From the NCBI GenBank assembly GCA_002310075.1, contig DBXU01000019.1:1-6047 (forward strand): a stretch of 6,047 nt of DNA, read 5' to 3'. The translations under genes were made by a program, and so were the position numbers. The notes beneath the pieces are model-generated. The model made no database searches. It had not been told where the DNA came from and saw only the letters and a list, made by a program, of their open reading frames with translations. Positions within the stretch are counted from its first letter, which is position 1; every line of letters begins with the position of its first letter. The DNA is from Bacteroidales bacterium UBA1204 (GTDB lineage Bacteria; Bacteroidota; Bacteroidia; Bacteroidales; F082). Of the stretch, positions 1-6,047 are shown piece after piece.

Positions 1-2
1 AA

Positions 3-74
3 GGCAAAATCTTTCGTTCCGTTCATCGTCTAACTCCGATCCGTTAGACGCTTCACTTCACTCAAGAATTTGCC
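3..74. repeat. Nested inverted repeats
   Basis: The outer arms GGCAAAATCTT (3-13) and AAGAATTTGCC (64-74) are complementary with one mismatch. Inside them CGTCTAAC (27-34) and GTTAGACG (43-50) form a perfect 8-bp stem with an 8-nt loop. No T-run follows the inner stem on the plus strand, so it is not a standard terminator. It may be a structured RNA or a protein-binding site. Confidence 0.5.
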
Positions 75-88
75 GACAGTGTTGCGTC

Positions 89-103
89 CCCACCCACCCA
101 CCC
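89..103. repeat. Short CCCA tandem repeat
   Basis: Three CCCA units followed by CCC make a C-rich tract. Its end (CCACC, 98-102) can pair with GGTGG at 109-113 across a short loop, in several slipped registers. The following GGTGGCTGC (109-117) resembles the GGTGGCTAC repeat near the tRNA at the other end of the window. Confidence 0.5.
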
Positions 104-135
104 TTTTAGGTGGCTGCTCCTTTGATTGTTACTTA

Positions 136-181
136 TTAAAAACCGAGTTCTCTTAGTCCTCTGAGTGCTCCGAGTTTTTAA
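136..181 (+). terminator. Possible intrinsic terminator
   Basis: TTAAAAAC (136-143) is perfectly complementary to GTTTTTAA (174-181), and short GAG/CTC pairings extend the stem inward around a loop of about 20 nt. The T5 lies in the 3' arm. It could end transcription of a gene left of the window, or act in both directions because the 5' arm supplies an A-run. The imperfect middle of the stem keeps confidence low. Confidence 0.35.
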
Positions 182-251
182 GGTAAAAGGTAATTGTTCG
201 GTGATTCAAAAATTCAAAAAACGATGCAAAATTAGCTCGTTCCGCTTGTCC

Positions 252-343
252 GTCAAGGTCAAGCCCTACGGGTTGCTTCGGGAAAAATCTTCCTTTTCTC
301 CGCTACTCTCCGAAAAGAGTATTTTTCTCTCGCAAACCTTGAC
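252..343. repeat. Inverted repeat enclosing a hairpin with T-tract
   Basis: GTCAAGGT (252-259) and ACCTTGAC (336-343) are perfect 8-bp complements about 76 nt apart. Between them TACTCT (304-309) and AGAGTA (316-321) form a hairpin followed directly by T5 (322-326), which resembles an intrinsic terminator on the plus strand. GAAAAAT (282-288) can alternatively pair with ATTTTTC (321-327), which would compete with that hairpin. This could be a small structured RNA, but I see no clear promoter for it. Confidence 0.35.
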
Positions 344-437
344 TGCCTGCGCTCCTCTACGCTGGCAAAAAAAGCATCTTTTTTTTCTTTTTTTGTTTTG
401 TTGTTTGTTTTGGTGAAAAATTTTAATACTGCTGTCG

Positions 438-1361
438 CTATGACTTGATTGTATCAAGCATCTCTCTCAACCTCGACACAACAGCTTCACCTACCAGTTT
501 TATCATCGAATCTGCAGAACCAGTCTTTGCATAGTCGTCAAAAGCATCGTAATACTTCCTTCTATCGGCAAACTTGATATTGATAGCTGGTAAACCTGCT
601 TGTATTAACTGCAGATTCATCAAAAGCCTTCCAGTACGACCATTGCCGTCGATGAATGGGTGTATGCTCTCAAACTGCAAATGAAAATTGGCGACACATT
701 CCACAATATGCATTGTTTTACTCCATTTCTGATAATTCTTCAACAACTCCCCTATCTTCGGCTCAATCAAATACGGCTGCACCGGATTTGTCAAAGCACC
801 TGCTATCCTAACATTGACACGCCTAAAAACACCTCTATCCTCAGGACGGTCAGCCAACACCAAATTGTGGATGCTCTTGATGTCGTATTCCGACAAAGGC
901 TTGTCTTTCTTCGCAAGCTCTTCAACGTATTCGAAAGCCTCCTTATACCCCACTGCCTCCAGATGGTCTTTCAGAGGCTTCTGGTCAATGGTTATCCCTT
1001 GAAGCACAAGTGCCGTTTCCTTCAAAGTCAAGGTGTTGCCCTCGATAGCATTACTATTATAGGTATGTTCCACAAGAAACACCTCTTTTATCGCTTCAAC
1101 TTCCGCCGGAGTCAATGGACGACATGAATCCAACGATTTCTTAAGTGAGTCAACCTGCTCCAAAATTGGAGTATAATTCTTCTTAACACCACTTTTTGTA
1201 TATGTCCTGGCATCCAAAGGCTGCTCCGCATCCTCTGGAATCATATACAGATTGCCTTTCCTTTCAACTCCTGCAATGCGTCCTTGCTCGCACAAAAGCC
1301 TCACTCTTCTTGCAGAAATACCCCATTTTGCTGCTGCTTCCGAAACTTTCATGTAATTCAT
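438..1361 (-). CDS. Fic family protein with N-terminal HTH
   Basis: The 307-residue product has two parts. Residues 4-45 look like a MerR/excisionase-type helix-turn-helix (VSEAAAKWGISARRVRLLC, then a GRIAGVERKGN wing). The rest is a Fic domain with the complete catalytic motif HPFIDGNGRTGR at 234-245, where His234 is the expected base and the Gly/Asn/Arg residues bind nucleotide phosphates. SNAIEG at 103-108 matches the inhibitory-helix motif [S/T]xxxE[G/N], whose glutamate (Glu107) blocks ATP in self-inhibited Fic proteins of the N-terminal-helix class. Enzymes of this family usually AMPylate hydroxyl side chains of target proteins; the target here is unknown. An in-frame ATG three codons downstream (1350-1352) is an alternative start. 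The gene diverges from the DUF6266 genes, so it has its own transcript. An intact active site argues against a pseudogene. Confidence 0.93.
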   Translation of the reverse strand: MNYMKVSEAAAKWGISARRVRLLCEQGRIAGVERKGNLYMIPEDAEQPLDARTYTKSGVKKNYTPILEQVDSLKKSLDSCRPLTPAEVEAIKEVFLVEHTYNSNAIEGNTLTLKETALVLQGITIDQKPLKDHLEAVGYKEAFEYVEELAKKDKPLSEYDIKSIHNLVLADRPEDRGVFRRVNVRIAGALTNPVQPYLIEPKIGELLKNYQKWSKTMHIVECVANFHLQFESIHPFIDGNGRTGRLLMNLQLIQAGLPAINIKFADRRKYYDAFDDYAKTGSADSMIKLVGEAVVSRLREMLDTIKS

Positions 1362-1365
1362 ATCG

Positions 1366-1432
1366 TTCCTATTTTTATATTTTCACGCTGCAAATATACA
1401 CATATTATTCCTATTTTTACAATTTTAGGAAT
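1366..1432 (-). promoter_or_regulatory. fic promoter and putative operator repeats
   Basis: Read on the minus strand, TATATTTG (1398-1391) matches the Bacteroidota -7 consensus TAnnTTTG exactly, and TTG at 1422-1420 sits 21 bp upstream as a -33 candidate. Transcription would start near 1385, about 25 nt before the ATG. The 12-bp word TTCCTATTTTTA (plus-strand sense) occurs exactly twice, at 1366-1377 between the likely start site and the ATG, and at 1408-1419 inside the -33/-7 spacer. An inverted core TAGGAAT at 1426-1432 pairs with ATTCCTA at 1407-1413. Copies overlying the promoter fit an operator, possibly for the HTH of the Fic protein itself. The proximal AGGAA could also serve as a ribosome-binding site. 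Confidence 0.6.
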
Positions 1433-1445
1433 AAAATAAATATCC

Positions 1446-1488
1446 AACTACGCAACAAAGCGCAACAAACAGCAGTTCAAACCGATGT
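1446..1488 (+). repeat. 43-bp direct repeat, copy 1
   Basis: The unit begins AACTACGCAACAAAGCGCAA and ends TTCAAACCGATGT. It matches the copy at 2144-2186 in 41 of 43 positions, the two differences both being A/G. It contains an internal doublet of CGCAACAAA (1452-1460 and 1461-1469). Its last ten bases are the 5' arm of a terminator hairpin, as in the second copy. No same-strand gene lies upstream here, so this copy looks like a 3' untranslated region without its gene. Confidence 0.85.
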
Positions 1489-1512
1489 GTTTTTCATGTC
1501 GGTTTCTTTTTT
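1479..1512 (+). terminator. Intrinsic terminator, apparently orphan
   Basis: AAACCGATGTG (1479-1489) pairs with CATGTCGGTTT (1495-1505) around a T5 loop. The 11-bp stem includes two G-U wobbles and is followed by C and T6 (1507-1512). The nearest gene to the left is on the opposite strand, so the terminator serves no visible upstream gene. It lies 50 nt before the next start codon and could alternatively be an attenuator in that gene's leader. Confidence 0.7.
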
Positions 1513-1562
1513 ATTATTGCTTTCACAATCAACTTATTATTCACTTAAAAAACAATAAAAAT

Positions 1563-2138
1563 ATGAGTAAAACTAAAAAACGCAACTGCCCGGGCAACGG
1601 CCTTATGCCGCTAATCGATTTCATCTCCAAGACAGACCAGGAGAAAATCAAAATCGCTAAAACAATCCTCTATCCGCTCATCAAGCTGCTCAACATCGGT
1701 CTCAAGTATGTAGCCAAGAAGAAAACGCCTTACCAATATGCTGTCTCGCAGATGGTTCGTCGTGCGCTCCATACCACCGACCAAAAGCACGAGTTCTCCA
1801 TCGACCTACACGAGATCATCTTCTCTCGAGGCAGCCTTCCAAATGCTCAGGTCGAGGCAGTCACCTTCCACGACCACATATGCGAAATCCTGATGAGCGA
1901 CAACTCCGGCTACGGTGATGCACGTCCCGACGACATCTCCATGGTGCTCTTCTTAAACTTCACCAAGCAGGAGGTCGCCTACTATCTCCAAGGCTACACT
2001 CGTTCAACAGCCTCGTGCCCCTATGAGCTTCCTGAGCGTTGGACAGGCGACACAATCAACGTCTTCATCGCCATGTATTCAGCCGACAAAAAACTCGTCT
2101 CCGACTCGGAGTATCTCGGGGAATACATCTCCCAATAA
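1563..2138 (+). CDS. Divergent DUF6266-like protein lacking the hallmark N-terminus
   Basis: The product has 191 residues. From about residue 31 it aligns without large gaps to the last array protein (start 5027): shared features include a VAKxxxPxxYAxSQMxRxA block, DNSG at 113-116, the run DDISMV near 123-128, a GFTRST/GYTRST block, and an SDSEYLGE-type end. Residues 1-30 (MSKTKKRNCPGNG, then a hydrophobic/charged segment) replace the GTIKQGILGGFSGKVGTVIG head found in the other five proteins. I chose the ATG at 1563 because homology starts after it and because 26 additional in-frame codons upstream overlap the terminator hairpin. It has no signal peptide or obvious membrane span. The gene is bracketed by the two 43-bp repeats with terminators, hence separately transcribed from the array. 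Function unknown; it may be a paralog that lost, or never had, the common head. Confidence 0.8.
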   Translation: MSKTKKRNCPGNGLMPLIDFISKTDQEKIKIAKTILYPLIKLLNIGLKYVAKKKTPYQYAVSQMVRRALHTTDQKHEFSIDLHEIIFSRGSLPNAQVEAVTFHDHICEILMSDNSGYGDARPDDISMVLFLNFTKQEVAYYLQGYTRSTASCPYELPERWTGDTINVFIAMYSADKKLVSDSEYLGEYISQ

Positions 2139-2143
2139 GGTTT

Positions 2144-2186
2144 AACTACGCAACAAAGCGCAACAAACGGCAATTCAAACCGATGT
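2144..2186 (+). repeat. 43-bp direct repeat, copy 2
   Basis: This copy starts six bases after the stop of the preceding gene and matches copy 1 (1446-1488) at 41 of 43 positions. It has the same internal doublet of CGCAACAAA and again ends inside the 5' arm of a terminator hairpin. Here it plainly forms the 3' untranslated region of the gene ending at 2138. Confidence 0.85.
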
Positions 2187-2207
2187 CCTCTTTGGCATCG
2201 GTTTTTT
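2177..2207 (+). terminator. Intrinsic terminator
   Basis: AAACCGATG (2177-2185) and CATCGGTTT (2196-2204) make a perfect 9-bp stem. It can extend by a U-G and a C-G pair, and the T6 tract lies at 2202-2207. It ends the unit that contains the gene at 1563 and separates it from the five-gene array. Confidence 0.85.
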
Positions 2208-2209
2208 AT

Positions 2210-2217
2210 TTACTTTG
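2210..2217 (+). promoter_or_regulatory. Putative -7 element for the DUF6266 array
   Basis: TTACTTTG followed by CAG differs from the TAnnTTTG consensus in one position. It is the best promoter-like site between the upstream terminator and the first array gene, and would give an untranslated leader of roughly 95 nt. A TTTG at 2191-2194, inside the terminator hairpin, is a possible but closely spaced -33 element. Confidence 0.4.
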
Positions 2218-2250
2218 CAGCCAACCTTGTAAGGATTAAAGCAGGGTCTT

Positions 2251-2280
2251 CTCCCTACCAACTCCCTACCAAGGCTACCT
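2251..2280. repeat. Tandem 11-bp repeat, integrase arm-like
   Basis: CTCCCTACCAA occurs twice back to back (2251-2261, 2262-2272) and is followed by GGCTACCT. On the minus strand this reads as three consecutive GGTAG-containing units in 11-bp register: AGGTAGCC, then TTGGTAGGGAG twice. Short direct repeats spaced by about one helical turn resemble arm-type sites of tyrosine recombinases, or an operator. Similar GGTAG/GTAGCC words recur near 5811-5829 and 5943-5964. Confidence 0.6.
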
Positions 2281-2320
2281 AATAAACAATATTTTATCAA
2301 CATCTAAAACATTAAAGATT

Positions 2321-2971
2321 ATGGGTACCATCAAACAAGGAATCCTCGGAGGTTTCTCCGGTAAAGTAGGAACCGTCATCGGTTCGTCATGGAAGGGCAT
2401 CAGCTACATGCGTGGCCAGGCTCAGCACGTTAAAAATCCTCGCTCAGCAGGACAGGTCAATCAGCGTAGTAAGTTCAATCTCGTTCTGAACTTCCTCCAA
2501 CCAAACGTTCCTTACATCCGCATCGGATATAAGAGCCAGGCTGCAAAACAGACCGAGTTCAACGCAGCGTTCTCGTATCACATCAAGAACGCCGTCACCG
2601 GCAGCTATCCTAACTATGCCATGGACTACACCAAGGTCGTAGTTTCTAAGGGTGGTCTTACACAGGTCACTGAAGCTGCAGCTTCATGGGTCGCTGCCCA
2701 GAATAAGCTCACATTCAGCTGGACTGACAACAGTGGAGTAGGTAACGCTCTTGCCACCGACAAAGCCATGCCGTTCATCTACAACAAGGCTAAAAACGAG
2801 ACCATCTACAACACTGCAGGTGCAACTCGTACAACTCACACCATGGACGTCACCGTCCCTAACAACTGGGTTGGCGACAAAGTGGAAGTCTATCTCGGCA
2901 TGGTTTCTGAAGATGGCGCATTGGTCGCTGATTCCATCTACCTCGGCGAGAAAACTCTCACTGCGGAATAA
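2321..2971 (+). CDS. DUF6266 family protein, array gene 1 (subtype A)
   Basis: The 216-residue protein carries the family head at 1-32 (GTIKQGILGGFSGKVGTVIG, then SSWKG and YMRG), continued by QAQHVKNPRSAGQ at 33-45. A middle region (46-107) leads to the VSKG block at 108-111, shared by both subtypes. The subtype A C-terminal region has a TFSWTDNSG core at 131-139, aromatic and alternating hydrophobic residues that suggest a beta-rich domain, and an ADSIYLGE motif at 203-210. There is no signal peptide, membrane helix or catalytic signature. I recognise the family as the uncharacterised DUF6266 of Bacteroidota, commonly multicopy; no activity is established to my knowledge. The leader AAAACATTAAAGATT directly precedes the ATG, with no Shine-Dalgarno site. 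First gene of the five-gene transcription unit. Confidence 0.87.
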   Translation: MGTIKQGILGGFSGKVGTVIGSSWKGISYMRGQAQHVKNPRSAGQVNQRSKFNLVLNFLQPNVPYIRIGYKSQAAKQTEFNAAFSYHIKNAVTGSYPNYAMDYTKVVVSKGGLTQVTEAAASWVAAQNKLTFSWTDNSGVGNALATDKAMPFIYNKAKNETIYNTAGATRTTHTMDVTVPNNWVGDKVEVYLGMVSEDGALVADSIYLGEKTLTAE

Positions 2972-2991
2972 CCCTTTAAAACCGCTGTATT

Positions 2992-3633
2992 ATGGGAACT
3001 ATTAAGCAAGGCATTCTCGGAGGGTTCAACGGCAAGGTCGGCACTGTCATCGGGTCATCCTGGAAAGGAATCACCTATATGCGAGGTCAGGCTCAGCATG
3101 TCAAAAACCCCCGAACAGCGGGGCAAGTTTACCAGCGCAATGCGATGAAAGCCATTGCGCTGGCTTTGCGTCCGATAGCTCCCACGCTTGGCATCACTTT
3201 CGCCAAAAGTGCTGGTAAAATGTCAGGCTACAACAAAGCTGTATCGGTAAACTTAAAAAAAGCCATCGTCAATCAAGACGGCGAGCCTGTAGTTGACTAT
3301 TCCAAACTCATCCTCTCGAAAGGAACTCTTACGCCGTTCGACTATCTCAACATTGACGATATGTCCGAAAACGGTAATTACTACTTGTCAACTGTCAATA
3401 ATGACAATTCGCAGGTCGATTACGAAGGTCTAATCTTCTTCATCTACGATCCGACTGAGGGCAGCTGGTTCACTGGAGTCATCAAGCAGCACTTCCACAC
3501 CGGCGAAACATTGGAATTCAATGGCGTGCCGCTCTACGGCGACCAAGAATACCTGGCGTTCGCTTGCGCTTACGACCCATCCACTGGTGCTGTCTCAGAT
3601 CCAATCCCGGATGTCGAAGCCATGGGCGGTTAA
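2992..3633 (+). CDS. DUF6266 family protein, array gene 2 (subtype B)
   Basis: The 213-residue product keeps the head almost unchanged (Asn13 instead of Ser in GGFNGK) and the QAQHVKNPRTAGQ block. After residue 50 it switches to a different sequence from gene 1: ALRPIAPTLGITFAKSAGK (58-76), a Tyr-Asn-Lys-Ala-Val block near 80-84, EPVVDYSKL (98-106), then the shared LSKG (108-111). The C-terminal region is acidic and aromatic (GLIFFIYDPTEGSWFTGVI) and ends with a Gly-rich EAMGG. This defines subtype B, shared with the next two genes. The gene starts 20 nt after gene 1 stops; its leader (CCGCTGTATT before the ATG) is unlike those of the other array genes. Cytoplasmic or non-Sec export cannot be told from the sequence. 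Function unknown. Confidence 0.86.
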   Translation: MGTIKQGILGGFNGKVGTVIGSSWKGITYMRGQAQHVKNPRTAGQVYQRNAMKAIALALRPIAPTLGITFAKSAGKMSGYNKAVSVNLKKAIVNQDGEPVVDYSKLILSKGTLTPFDYLNIDDMSENGNYYLSTVNNDNSQVDYEGLIFFIYDPTEGSWFTGVIKQHFHTGETLEFNGVPLYGDQEYLAFACAYDPSTGAVSDPIPDVEAMGG

Positions 3634-3664
3634 CCATTAAAAAACAATATAAAGATTATGTACT

Positions 3665-4309
3665 ATGGGAACCATTAAACAAGGTATTCTCGGAGGCTTT
3701 TCCGGCAAAGTTGGCACCGTTGTCGGTGCCAGCTGGAAAGGCATCAGTTATATGCGTGGGCAAGCCCAGCACGTAAAGAATCCTCGCACTGACGCGCAGT
3801 TGTATAATCGTGCAGCCCTCCGGGCTATCACCGATGCGCTGCGCCCGATTGCCACCACTCTGCAGATTACATTTGCTAAGAGTGCTGGCAAAATGTCGGC
3901 TTTCAATAAAGCAGTCCAAATCAACTACAAAAAGGCCATCATCGACCAAAACGGCCAACCTGTAGTCGATTTCTCCAAACTAGTCCTTTCAAAAGGAAAT
4001 CTTACGCCATTTCATTACATGATTATCACGGACAGCAATCAAGATGGCTCTTACTACATTTCCATTATGTCGGATGACTATGAGTATCCTGAATACGATG
4101 GTCTTATCTTTTTCATCTACAATGTCACGGATGGCATTTGGTCAACAGGTGTCATAAAAGAACATTTTGAAGTAGGCGAAGGTTTGTTTTACGATAGTGG
4201 CGTACCATTGTATGGCTATAAAGAATACTTGGGCTTTGCTTGTGTTTATGACCCAGCCACTGGTCAGGTTTCAAATCCGATTGCCAAAGTAGAAATCAAT
4301 GGCGGTTAA
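3665..4309 (+). CDS. DUF6266 family protein, array gene 3 (subtype B)
   Basis: The 214-residue product is the closest relative of gene 2 along its whole length: same head, LRPIATTLQITFAKSAGK, QPVVDFSKL, LSKGNLTPF, GLIFFIYNVTDG, and VPLYGYKEYLGFACVYDP near the end. The true start is the ATG at 3665, since it restores MGTIKQ. A second ATG seven bases upstream (3658) is out of frame and opens a six-codon reading frame (MYYGNH, stop at 3676-3678) that overlaps the gene start; it may slightly reduce or couple initiation. The second half of the gene uses noticeably more A/T-ending codons than its first half and than gene 2. Gap to gene 2 is 31 nt. Function unknown. Confidence 0.86.
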   Translation: MGTIKQGILGGFSGKVGTVVGASWKGISYMRGQAQHVKNPRTDAQLYNRAALRAITDALRPIATTLQITFAKSAGKMSAFNKAVQINYKKAIIDQNGQPVVDFSKLVLSKGNLTPFHYMIITDSNQDGSYYISIMSDDYEYPEYDGLIFFIYNVTDGIWSTGVIKEHFEVGEGLFYDSGVPLYGYKEYLGFACVYDPATGQVSNPIAKVEINGG

Positions 4310-4341
4310 TTATTTCACAAACAATTTAAAGATTATTACAC

Positions 4342-4998
4342 ATGGGAACAATTAAACAAGGAATTTTAGGAGGCTTCAGTGGCAAGGTCGGCACCGTGGT
4401 AGGTGCCTCTTGGAAAGGCAAAGCCTATATGCGTGGCATGCCTCAACATTATACAACTCAGGCCACATGGGGCACTCTGTTCTGCCAGCGTGCGCTGAGC
4501 GCCATCATCGAGGTGCTTCGCCCAATAGCCTCAACCTTACGGTTGACTTTTGGCGATTACGACCATGGATTGTCCACTTTCAATAAGGCGGTCAAGATTA
4601 ACTACCCAGGCGCCATCGAAAACCATGGCGGTGAGCCTGTAGTTATCTATAAAAAGCTTCAGCTCTCCAAAGGCTTCCTGCAGTGCTTTGATATGTTTGC
4701 TATCGACGATCCGGCAGAAAATGGTAATTGGTTTGTTGCAGCTATTCAGTATGACAACTCTGAAGTGGTGTTTCCAGGCTTCATTTTAATCCTTTATGAT
4801 AAAGTGTCTAACACCTGGTTCTCTCACGTCTATGACCAGCCATTCACCACTGGAACCTCGCTCACCATGCAAGGCTTTCCGATTGACAGTGAGAAAGACC
4901 TCTTAGGCTGGGCGTTTGTCTATGACAAAGCTCTCGGCCAAGTGTCAAACGCTTGCTTGGATTTCCACAGCATGCACATTAACGAAGAAGATGATTAA
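4342..4998 (+). CDS. DUF6266 family protein, array gene 4 (divergent subtype B)
   Basis: The 218-residue product keeps residues 1-32 of the head intact, then departs: MPQHYTTQATWGTLFC replaces the otherwise constant QAQHVKNPRTAGQ segment at 33-48. Subtype B features follow in weakened form: VLRPIASTLRLTFGDYDHG, STFNKAVKIN, EPVVIYKKL and LSKGFLQCF. The acidic tail NEEDD and a Cys-containing end are peculiar to it. The leader ACAATTTAAAGATT (4321-4334) plus seven bases precedes the ATG, nearly the same as that of gene 3, which supports descent from a common leader-plus-gene duplication. It lies 32 nt after gene 3. The most diverged member of the array, yet with a full-length open frame. Function unknown. 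Confidence 0.84.
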   Translation: MGTIKQGILGGFSGKVGTVVGASWKGKAYMRGMPQHYTTQATWGTLFCQRALSAIIEVLRPIASTLRLTFGDYDHGLSTFNKAVKINYPGAIENHGGEPVVIYKKLQLSKGFLQCFDMFAIDDPAENGNWFVAAIQYDNSEVVFPGFILILYDKVSNTWFSHVYDQPFTTGTSLTMQGFPIDSEKDLLGWAFVYDKALGQVSNACLDFHSMHINEEDD

Positions 4999-5026
4999 GT
5001 ATTAACAATTAAAACATTAAAGAATT

Positions 5027-5665
5027 ATGGGAACAATAAAACAAGGTGTACTAGGAGGCTTCTCCGGCAAGGTCGGCACCGTCATCGGTGCCAGCTGGAA
5101 AGGCACCGCCTACATGCGTGGCCAAGCCACTCATGTCAAGAATCCTCGCACTGCTGCGCAAATCGCACAGCGCACTAAAATGGAATTCGCTCGCAACTTC
5201 CTGCAGCCAGCTGCAGAGTTCATCAATCTAGGCTTCAAAGATGTCGCTAAACATCAGTCGCCACTCAATTATGCCGCATCTCAGATGATGCGCAATGCTA
5301 TTGCTGGAGATTATCCTGATTATTCACCAATCTACTCGAAGTTGAAATGGTCTCACGGCCTGCTCACTACTCCAATAGTTGAAACAGTCTATGCCAACTA
5401 TGATGCGTTAGATTTCTTGTGGCAGGACAACTCAGGCTCCGGCAACGCCAGGGCTGACGACATCTCTATGGTTGTCGTATGCAACGCAGAGAAGAAAGAA
5501 ATCGCGTATTTCATGAACGGCTTCACCCGCTCAACTCAGAGCACACACTGCGAATTACCCGAAAGTTGGGTCGATGATCATGTACATGTTTACATCACAA
5601 TGCGCTCAGCTGATGGCAAGCTCATCTCAAACTCCCACTATTGTGGAGAATTCTTACTCGAATAA
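5027..5665 (+). CDS. DUF6266 family protein, array gene 5 (subtype A)
   Basis: The 212-residue product has the constant head (GTIKQGVLGGFSGKVGTVIG) and the QATHVKNPRTAAQ block, followed by a subtype A body: FLQPAAEFINLGFKDVAK, YAASQMMRNAIAGDYPDYSPIYSKL, WQDNSGSGNARADDISMV and a SNSHYCGE-type end. It is the nearest relative in the window of the headless protein encoded at 1563-2138, aligning with it from about residue 53 to the C-terminus. It shares the leader AAAACATTAAAGA(A)TT with gene 1, the other subtype A member of the array. It is the last gene of the run; a terminator starts two bases after its stop codon. No signal peptide, membrane span or catalytic motif. Function unknown. Confidence 0.87.
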   Translation: MGTIKQGVLGGFSGKVGTVIGASWKGTAYMRGQATHVKNPRTAAQIAQRTKMEFARNFLQPAAEFINLGFKDVAKHQSPLNYAASQMMRNAIAGDYPDYSPIYSKLKWSHGLLTTPIVETVYANYDALDFLWQDNSGSGNARADDISMVVVCNAEKKEIAYFMNGFTRSTQSTHCELPESWVDDHVHVYITMRSADGKLISNSHYCGEFLLE

Positions 5666-5666
5666 C

Positions 5667-5694
5667 AAAAAAACCGCCTCAAAGCGGTTTTTTT
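5667..5694 (+). terminator. Intrinsic terminator of the DUF6266 array
   Basis: AAAAAAACCGC (5667-5677) and GCGGTTTTTTT (5684-5694) form a perfect 11-bp stem around the loop CTCAAA. The A-run of the 5' arm and the T-run of the 3' arm allow function on either strand. It begins two bases after the stop of the last array gene. Confidence 0.93.
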
Positions 5695-5717
5695 ATGCTT
5701 AAATGAAAAAAATTTTT

Positions 5718-5725
5718 TATCTTTG
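5718..5725 (+). promoter_or_regulatory. Bacteroidota-type -7 promoter element
   Basis: TATCTTTG matches TAnnTTTG exactly, in an AT-rich stretch just downstream of the array terminator. I see no convincing -33 TTTG at the usual distance. Transcription would begin near 5731 and run into the hairpin at 5763-5796, with no protein-coding frame between. Confidence 0.55.
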
Positions 5726-5730
5726 TGGTG

Positions 5731-5796
5731 CTAAATCATTAGCAGACTCAGTTAAAGTTCTGGTGCATTTATGTCTTCATAGATGCACTTTTTTTT
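5731..5796 (+). ncRNA. Candidate small RNA
   Basis: An exact TAnnTTTG box (5718-5725) is followed within about 65 nt by a strong intrinsic terminator, and no open frame of useful length lies between (the only ATG, at 5771, gives three codons). The body includes TTAGCAGACTCAGTTAAAG and a second TGGTGC (5761-5766) repeating one at 5726-5731; the first copy could compete for pairing with GCAC of the terminator arm. Both ends are inferred. It may instead be a leader left behind by a lost gene. Confidence 0.4.
5763..5796 (+). terminator. Intrinsic terminator of the small transcript
   Basis: GTGCATTTATG (5763-5773) and CATAGATGCAC (5778-5788) form an 11-bp stem with one G-U wobble and a TCTT loop, followed directly by T8 (5789-5796). 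It is independent of the array terminator about 70 nt upstream. Confidence 0.88.
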
Positions 5797-5810
5797 CTTA
5801 GTTTTTTTCG

Positions 5811-5829
5811 TCTACCCTACAGCTACCCA
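5811..5829. repeat. Degenerate GGGTAG doublet
   Basis: On the minus strand TTGGGTAGCTG is followed by TAGGGTAGACG, two units in 11-bp register sharing GGGTAG. They resemble the GGTAG units at 2251-2280 and may be the same kind of protein-binding site. Confidence 0.35.
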
Positions 5830-5942
5830 ATTCAATTCCGATCCCATGTATAGTAATTTTTCTCAATCTTCGGAAATCTTTGCTTTTCCTAGTGAAATCT
5901 CTTGTTTTTGCTTGCGTTTATTAGGATGATAGTAATGTCTTC

Positions 5943-5964
5943 GGTGGCTACATGGTGGCTACAT
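5943..5964. repeat. Perfect tandem 11-bp repeat near the tRNA
   Basis: GGTGGCTACAT occurs twice with no spacer (5943-5953, 5954-5964) and is followed by GGG. It lies just beyond the tRNA terminator, where the arm sites of an integrated element would be expected. The core GTGGCTAC is related to GGCTACCT before the array and to GGTGGCTGC at 109-117. Confidence 0.75.
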
Positions 5965-5971
5965 GGGAAAG

Positions 5972-6006
5972 AAAAATCCCCTGTAAATCGTTGATTTACA
6001 GGGGAT
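5972..6006 (-). terminator. Intrinsic terminator of the tRNA transcript
   Basis: The arms ATCCCCTGTAAATC (5976-5989) and GATTTACAGGGGAT (5993-6006) are a perfect 14-bp inverted repeat with a 3-nt loop. Read on the minus strand it is followed by a T-run (5976-5972). It lies about 17 nt after the tRNA 3' end, in the right orientation to end tRNA transcription. Confidence 0.85.
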
Positions 6007-6023
6007 TACATCTAAAAAATCCG

Positions 6024-6047
6024 TACCCAGGGCCGGGATCGAACCGG
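6024..6047 (-). tRNA. tRNA gene, 3' part (truncated by window edge)
   Basis: On the minus strand CCGG-TTCGATC-CCGGC (6047-6032) is a canonical T-arm with the invariant TTCRA loop; its fifth base pair needs one base beyond the window. CCTGGGT (6031-6025) would be the 3' strand of the acceptor stem and A6024 the discriminator base. CCA is not encoded, the next bases being CGG. The anticodon lies outside the window, so the amino acid cannot be assigned. Confidence 0.85.

Follow-up and report, generated by a model that had tools for sequence, protein, structure and literature searches.

To what kind of DNA a run of similar genes of a family without known function belongs, and what its proteins might do together, is the question raised by a stretch of 6,047 nt of Bacteroidales bacterium UBA1204 (contig DBXU01000019.1, positions 1 to 6,047; hereafter the window). 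A survey of open reading frames (ORFs) over the whole stretch showed five plus-strand genes at 2321–5665, separated by 20, 31, 32 and 28 nt, all of which encoded proteins of family DUF6266 (Pfam PF19781). This array was found to form the attachment-site end of an integrative element whose insertion targets in Bacteroidota are gene ends, those of tRNA genes among them, an assignment of which we are nearly certain. The genes, with the scores of their products against PF19781, are as follows.

2321–2971, plus strand: DUF6266 gene 1, slot A1, subtype A (216 aa, 284.6 bits, AlphaFold model)
2321–2422, plus strand: constant head of gene 1, residues 1–34; the same head begins genes 2 to 5 (identity, AlphaFold, synonymous differences)
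2992–3633, plus strand: DUF6266 gene 2, slot B1, subtype B (213 aa, 97 bits)
3665–4309, plus strand: DUF6266 gene 3, slot B2, subtype B (214 aa, 88.2 bits, AlphaFold model)
4342–4998, plus strand: DUF6266 gene 4, slot C, divergent subtype B (218 aa, 44.7 bits)
5027–5665, plus strand: DUF6266 gene 5, slot A2, subtype A (212 aa, 187.3 bits)

An earlier note, made from the sequence alone, had listed the same five genes, and its coordinates, lengths and spacings were correct; it had also described a near-constant head and a split into subtypes A (genes 1 and 5) and B (genes 2, 3 and 4), both of which were borne out. Among the first 32 residues, 26 are invariant in the five proteins, and the profile match is full-length for genes 1 and 5 and stops at profile positions 121, 105 and 111 in genes 2, 3 and 4, respectively. 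All five products, together with that of a sixth, headless DUF6266 gene (1563–2138), exceeded the curated family cut-off of 23.4 bits; they differ from the family as profiled in that genes 2 to 4 cover only about the first half of the profile, and in their arrangement as ordered multi-slot arrays. Over the whole protein, genes 2, 3, 4 and 5 shared 37, 39, 27 and 50% identity with gene 1, and gene 4 was the outlier of subtype B, having 46% identity to gene 3 versus 67% for gene 2. The earlier note had missed the headless gene, and also the 3′ end of a tRNA gene with which the window closes on its right.

A homologue scan with one genome per species, from which the best 80 of 106 stretches were taken, gave 78 loci. 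Besides the window, 25 of these carried ordered multi-slot arrays (class I), in the order headless (if present), A1, B1, B2, C and A2, with some slots missing, broken or cut by the contig end and with B2 absent from many arrays. Chance is excluded as the source of the array because this order recurs in 25 other loci, at which the copies are clustered. All 25 loci came from uncultured Bacteroidales or Bacteroidia metagenome-assembled genomes, and the hosts named in record titles were ruminants. The six array genomes checked belonged to one genus, in which DUF6266 was present in 53 of 99 genomes with 1 to 17 matches each; in the wider family of this genus it was present in 12 of 60 genomes, G002 among them. 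The 53 other loci had a single DUF6266 gene in 48 cases; co-assembly of paralogues, proposed from the window alone, therefore cannot be the general function of the family.

The evidence for an integrative element lies at the right end of the arrays, where three features were observed in the window.

5942–5963, no strand assigned: direct-repeat pair with an 11-bp period, putative integrase arm sites
5975–6007, minus strand: hairpin resembling a terminator, downstream of the tRNA gene
6023–6047, minus strand: attachment core: tRNA-Leu 3′ end (anticodon caa, judged from locus L008), the rest of the gene lying beyond the window

The last 25 nt of the window matched the 3′ end of tRNA-Leu(caa) of L008 at 100%, on the strand opposite to the array; ARAGORN, for which a 25-nt 3′ end is too short, found no whole tRNA in the window. 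Among the 21 class I arrays having more than 350 nt downstream, 17 had a whole tRNA on the opposite strand 179–346 bp past the last gene (16 of 20 if one of L056 and L058, which are 99.98% identical, is dropped), and these tRNAs represented six anticodons and four amino acids, with three anticodons occurring within one genome. The remaining four comprised L009 and L012, with a copy of the tRNA-Leu core and then another integrase, and L004 and L006, with a dnaK-like 3′ end, recognised by eye, downstream. As a control, other ORFs in the same loci faced a tRNA in 3 of 209 cases within 350 bp and 8 of 209 within 2.5 kb. The repeat pair near the tRNA, the sequence of which varied from site to site, passed a strict filter in 14 of 22 arrays (window included) versus 37 of 726 random windows of the same loci. 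Downstream of the non-array loci this filter gave no above-chance signal (2 of 52), while a looser filter, applied without a control, detected the pair at four of five right ends that carry lysis-type genes (see below), the fifth being found by eye. At 5942–6047 of the window, an attachment core and putative integrase arm repeats adjoin the array, the configuration of a site-specific integrative element.

Both attachment sites, together with an integrase, were found in three elements, of 16 kb (G155, Seramator thermalis), 23.7 kb (G158) and 36.4 kb (G002), all with the integrase at the left, DUF6266 at the right and both on the same strand; the left core of eight other arrays was not found on the DNA examined, mostly short contigs. 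In G002, a second copy of the core and of the arm repeats lies 36.4 kb to the left, next to the gene of an integrase that has Arm-DNA-bind_5 and SAM_5 domains besides the catalytic one and is the sole PF17293 match of the genome. This element also encodes an HTH_17 protein, a PriCT_2/DUF3987 primase and a UvrD-type helicase, with DUF6266 as its last genes. The element of S. thermalis lies between the end of mnmE, recognised by the C-terminus of its product, and a degenerate copy of that end. Its genes encode, in order, a helix-turn-helix (HTH)/AlpA-like protein, the integrase, ars products, two HTH proteins, a two-part primase and DUF6266, followed by a 97-aa membrane-type protein, an endolysin-like and a spanin-like protein. 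The G158 element, inserted at a dnaK-like end, is built likewise but carries different cargo.

At the 53 other loci, at least one lysis-type gene (holin-, endolysin- or spanin-like) was present within 3 kb after DUF6266 in 21 (19 of 45 among those with at least 1.5 kb downstream), and all three kinds were present in 15 of these 21, some of the loci being close relatives. The 136-aa protein matched endolysin phrog_873 (8.3e-40), the protein of 145–151 aa was weakly holin-like, and the third had a lipobox and a C-terminal membrane segment, which we take to be comparable to a one-piece spanin. None of these proteins had a match in any of the 25 class I loci. Two DUF6266 genes with a retained 97-aa type protein were observed in L069/L128, a possible intermediate. 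In other lineages, one DUF6266 gene and then holin-, endolysin- and spanin-like genes make up the right end, and for this reason the elements resemble phage satellites more than conjugative islands. With satellites of the phage-inducible chromosomal island (PICI) and P4 types, as defined by their characteristic traits, they share an integrase, attachment repeats, an HTH/AlpA-like protein, a primase and weakly defence-like cargo, and the wider family has lysis-type genes; satellites seldom carry a complete lysis cassette. Of the 20 ORFs in the G155 element, 15 were scanned (Pfam or PHROGs) and none was recognised as structural; among the scanned proteins of G002 and G155, a part of all, no head or tail gene was named. 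The elements differ from satellites in that no packaging or capsid-redirecting gene was recognised in the elements.

The elements might instead be NBU-like integrative mobilizable elements (IMEs) moved by conjugation, with the array as plain cargo such as surface proteins useful to the host, a reading to which we give distinctly less than even credence. The ars and Fic genes are cargo typical of islands, and G004, which bears four arrays, has a relaxase on another contig. NBU1 of Bacteroides likewise has a tyrosine integrase and inserts at a tRNA-Leu 3′ end, and elements at the 3′ end of trmE (mnmE) without a relaxase of their own are on record there (SGI1; MGIVmi1 is listed as having none) (PMC5704250). 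The existence of such islands in the phylum is exemplified by a Riemerella island at tRNA-Arg (PMC6764341). In contrast to NBU1, which has a MobP relaxase (PMC5704250), five of the six array genomes (G001, G002, G003, G005 and G006) had no relaxase of family PF03432, and in G155 and G004 it occurred only on contigs without these elements, the search covering this one family in G001 to G006 and G155. Moreover, DUF6266 keeps its place at the right attachment site in elements that differ in arms and cargo, and a lysis-type gene follows it in 21 of 53 other loci; such constancy of position is unlike ordinary cargo.

Why the heads are so alike was addressed with 62 genes from 16 arrays, taken from the window and from 15 of the 25 array loci, the remaining 10 loci (some with whole genes) being left out. 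Across 66 pairs of slot A1 heads the protein was 100% identical at a mean proportion of synonymous differences (pS) of 0.48. Heads of different slots inside one array were 81–90% identical at pS 0.57–0.75, while identity dropped to 11–67% in the helix and fibronectin type III (FnIII) parts. As such identity persists at these pS values, the head is preserved mainly by purifying selection on the protein, and the constant head with a variable tail, as the earlier note had it, is genuine. Recent duplication or gene conversion, and not function, could also make heads alike. Consistent with this, between-array head pS (0.46–0.57) was below that of the helix and FnIII parts (0.53–0.74) in all five slots, and within arrays A2 versus C gave head pS of 0.57 against 0.70 and 0.74. 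In the other five within-array slot comparisons, however, head pS was 0.69–0.75, about that of the rest, with heads still 81–90% identical, and the same head recurs at single-gene loci in distant Bacteroidota. In view of the high within-array pS, conversion as the entire cause is rejected, and we consider this explanation very improbable; because between-array head pS is lower than elsewhere in the gene, a degree of homogenisation or a constraint on codons close to the start is nevertheless likely. When a head-only profile was run against 6874 ORFs of the fetched loci, which had been picked for DUF6266, 282 of 294 matches carried a tail recognised by the DUF6266 profile. The other 12 comprised seven distinct proteins, six of them broken or cut; the seventh, L132:5336–6022 (228 aa), is a whole protein with a tail unrecognised by the profiles used.

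In AlphaFold models of genes 1 and 3, the head forms a separate low-confidence segment, with a predicted local distance difference test score below 50 at residues 1–34 and 1–26, respectively. The most conserved part of the proteins is thus predicted to be disordered alone, and head and tail do not form a single inseparable fold in either model. By fold matches of the predicted models to structure libraries, families beyond those matched being possible, both tail types are predicted to be FnIII-like sandwiches, and the two subtypes would then not represent two kinds of domain as had been suggested. The likeness to FnIII is one of predicted fold: DUF6266 had no sequence match to any FnIII family in Pfam, and a PDB sequence search gave no credible match (best E 0.086).

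These observations can be accommodated in one scheme. The element would consist of a left core, arm repeats, a tyrosine integrase, cargo, HTH regulators and a primase, followed by a palindromic non-coding region, DUF6266, arm repeats and the right core. From its place by the right attachment site, on the primase strand and ahead of lysis-type genes, DUF6266 would seem to be a late gene in a satellite-like element, and the protein would be an assembly-type accessory. The build of the protein (a flexible arm that does not vary, a helical spacer and a domain of the display type) suggests that it is a subunit docking by way of its arm: the glycine-rich head would dock into a partner that the subunits share, or into the subunit that follows, the helical hairpin would act as spacer, and the FnIII-like domain would be displayed. 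In the rumen genus, lysis genes may have been lost and DUF6266 amplified into the ordered slots (headless, A1, B1, B2 in some, C and A2), whose proteins, probably made together, would assemble as a hetero-oligomer with one docking site and varied displayed domains. For the scheme as a whole, from the attachment-end array to the late docking and display protein, our confidence is evenly balanced; it is somewhat higher for the head as a docking arm and tentative, below the midpoint, for a role of DUF6266 in a particle. A bolder form, in which DUF6266 marks an undescribed satellite family of Bacteroidota with its own lysis cassette and with these proteins on the particle surface, the rumen genus having a fixed multi-slot FnIII display set that fits into one site by the common N-terminal arm, with at most four elements per genome, is conceivable and rather doubtful.

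Several observations weigh against the scheme. No lysis-type gene was seen in 32 of the 53 other loci; PHROGs gave nothing below E 0.01 for 16 DUF6266 proteins; tblastn of gene 1 against phage and plasmid collections gave no match; and a pattern-limited scan of IMG/VR for DUF6266 yielded two contigs. NBU1 is also a close model for the conjugative alternative (PMC5704250). A role in lysis or release, as an envelope or secreted protein accompanying holin and endolysin, would agree with DUF6266 directly preceding the lysis-type genes; the rumen arrays, however, in which no lysis gene was found, have kept DUF6266 and increased its copies, and we regard this role as improbable.

In the literature searched, outside which most subscription journals lie, neither DUF6266 nor PF19781 was named, and nothing was found on satellites in Bacteroidetes/Bacteroidota (the terms "phage satellites" and "Bacteroidetes" do co-occur in papers), lysis-bearing satellites, holin-bearing IMEs of Bacteroidales, or a "structural protein P5" in Bacteroides elements. 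The present results give the family a genomic home, the attachment-site end of integrative elements, and a testable role. In Bacteroidota, the cargo of these elements includes Fic, arsenic-resistance and defence-like genes; if the elements are satellites, genes of this sort would have a new carrier in one of the main gut phyla. A constant arm with a variable domain would be a compact model of several display domains served by one docking site.

The other features of the window lie mainly to the left of the array.

1–438, no strand assigned: conserved palindrome-rich non-coding region, left of DUF6266 (nucleotide comparison, folding)
438–1361, minus strand: Fic protein with an HTH-like N-terminus, cargo between the non-coding region and the array (PF02661, 3.5e-20; PADLOC PDC-S04, 1e-35)
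1446–1488, no strand assigned: left copy of a 43-nt direct repeat, overlapping a terminator-like hairpin
1563–2138, plus strand: headless DUF6266 gene, 191 aa (PF19781 positions 40–198 only, the first 39 being absent; 97.9 bits)
2144–2186, no strand assigned: right copy of the 43-nt repeat, 95% identical, with a terminator-like hairpin
5718–5792, plus strand: promoter-like box (5718–5725) and putative RNA with two hairpins (5′ hairpin and terminator hairpin), ending in a T-run (folding)

Region 1–438 shared 75–95% nucleotide identity with pieces upstream of other arrays and had weaker matches left of DUF6266 in G158 (9e-8) and G161 (5e-11); it is thus partly kept from rumen arrays to other Bacteroidales loci. 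Its folding z scores were about -4 on both strands (-4.3 and -4.0), and it could be a replication origin or a packaging site. The N-terminus of the Fic protein scored 25.8 bits with HTH_17, slightly below the cut-off of 27, and similar repeats at 1359–1396 and 1401–1438 cover the start region of its gene, as though it were self-regulated. The 43-nt repeat, which stands on either side of the headless gene and contains a doubled CGCAACAAA motif, may be what is left of a former element end. Counterparts of the headless gene were found in L001, L003, L005, L009, L011, L018 and L041.

The box at 5718–5725 resembles promoters of the Bacteroidota type. Rfam at gathering scores detected nothing in the window, the putative RNA included, and only tRNAs in nine loci. 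Of 22 arrays, 16 had a candidate counterpart of this RNA, the ends of 8 being placed manually. The MAFFT alignment was too poor for a covariation count, and 12 of the 16 were folded singly; all 12 gave two hairpins, with differing stem sequences and z scores of -1.9 to -7.1.

Further arrays of the same genus (class II, L121–L139) encoded proteins of about 223, 252, 224, 227 and 228 aa with nearly the same head and very different tails, and 6 of 12 faced a tRNA, 575–2205 bp away. Tandem elements were observed in L009, L012 and L089, where a second integrase with different repeats lies past the right end of the DUF6266 element. L089, from IMG/VR, had been considered as an excised circle, with DUF6266 and lysis-type genes beside an integrase; by visual comparison, however, its flanking repeats are unlike, and a terminal repeat is absent, so that two tandem elements are the preferred reading. 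Within the G002 element (L079, 6404–13433), a weak ZorA/ZorB-like pair lies beside proteins of 465 and 1053 aa of unclear family, a candidate defence system. In L039 and L090, DUF6266 and the lysis-type module stand beside genes resembling, by eye, those of Cas2, Cas1 and, in L039, Cas9. L052 and L054 of Bacteroides have a single longer DUF6266 gene, without lysis-type genes or the repeat pair, and are possibly domesticated; the L054 protein has a Gly/Ser-rich C-terminus, and its gene adjoins a radical-SAM/TRAM gene.

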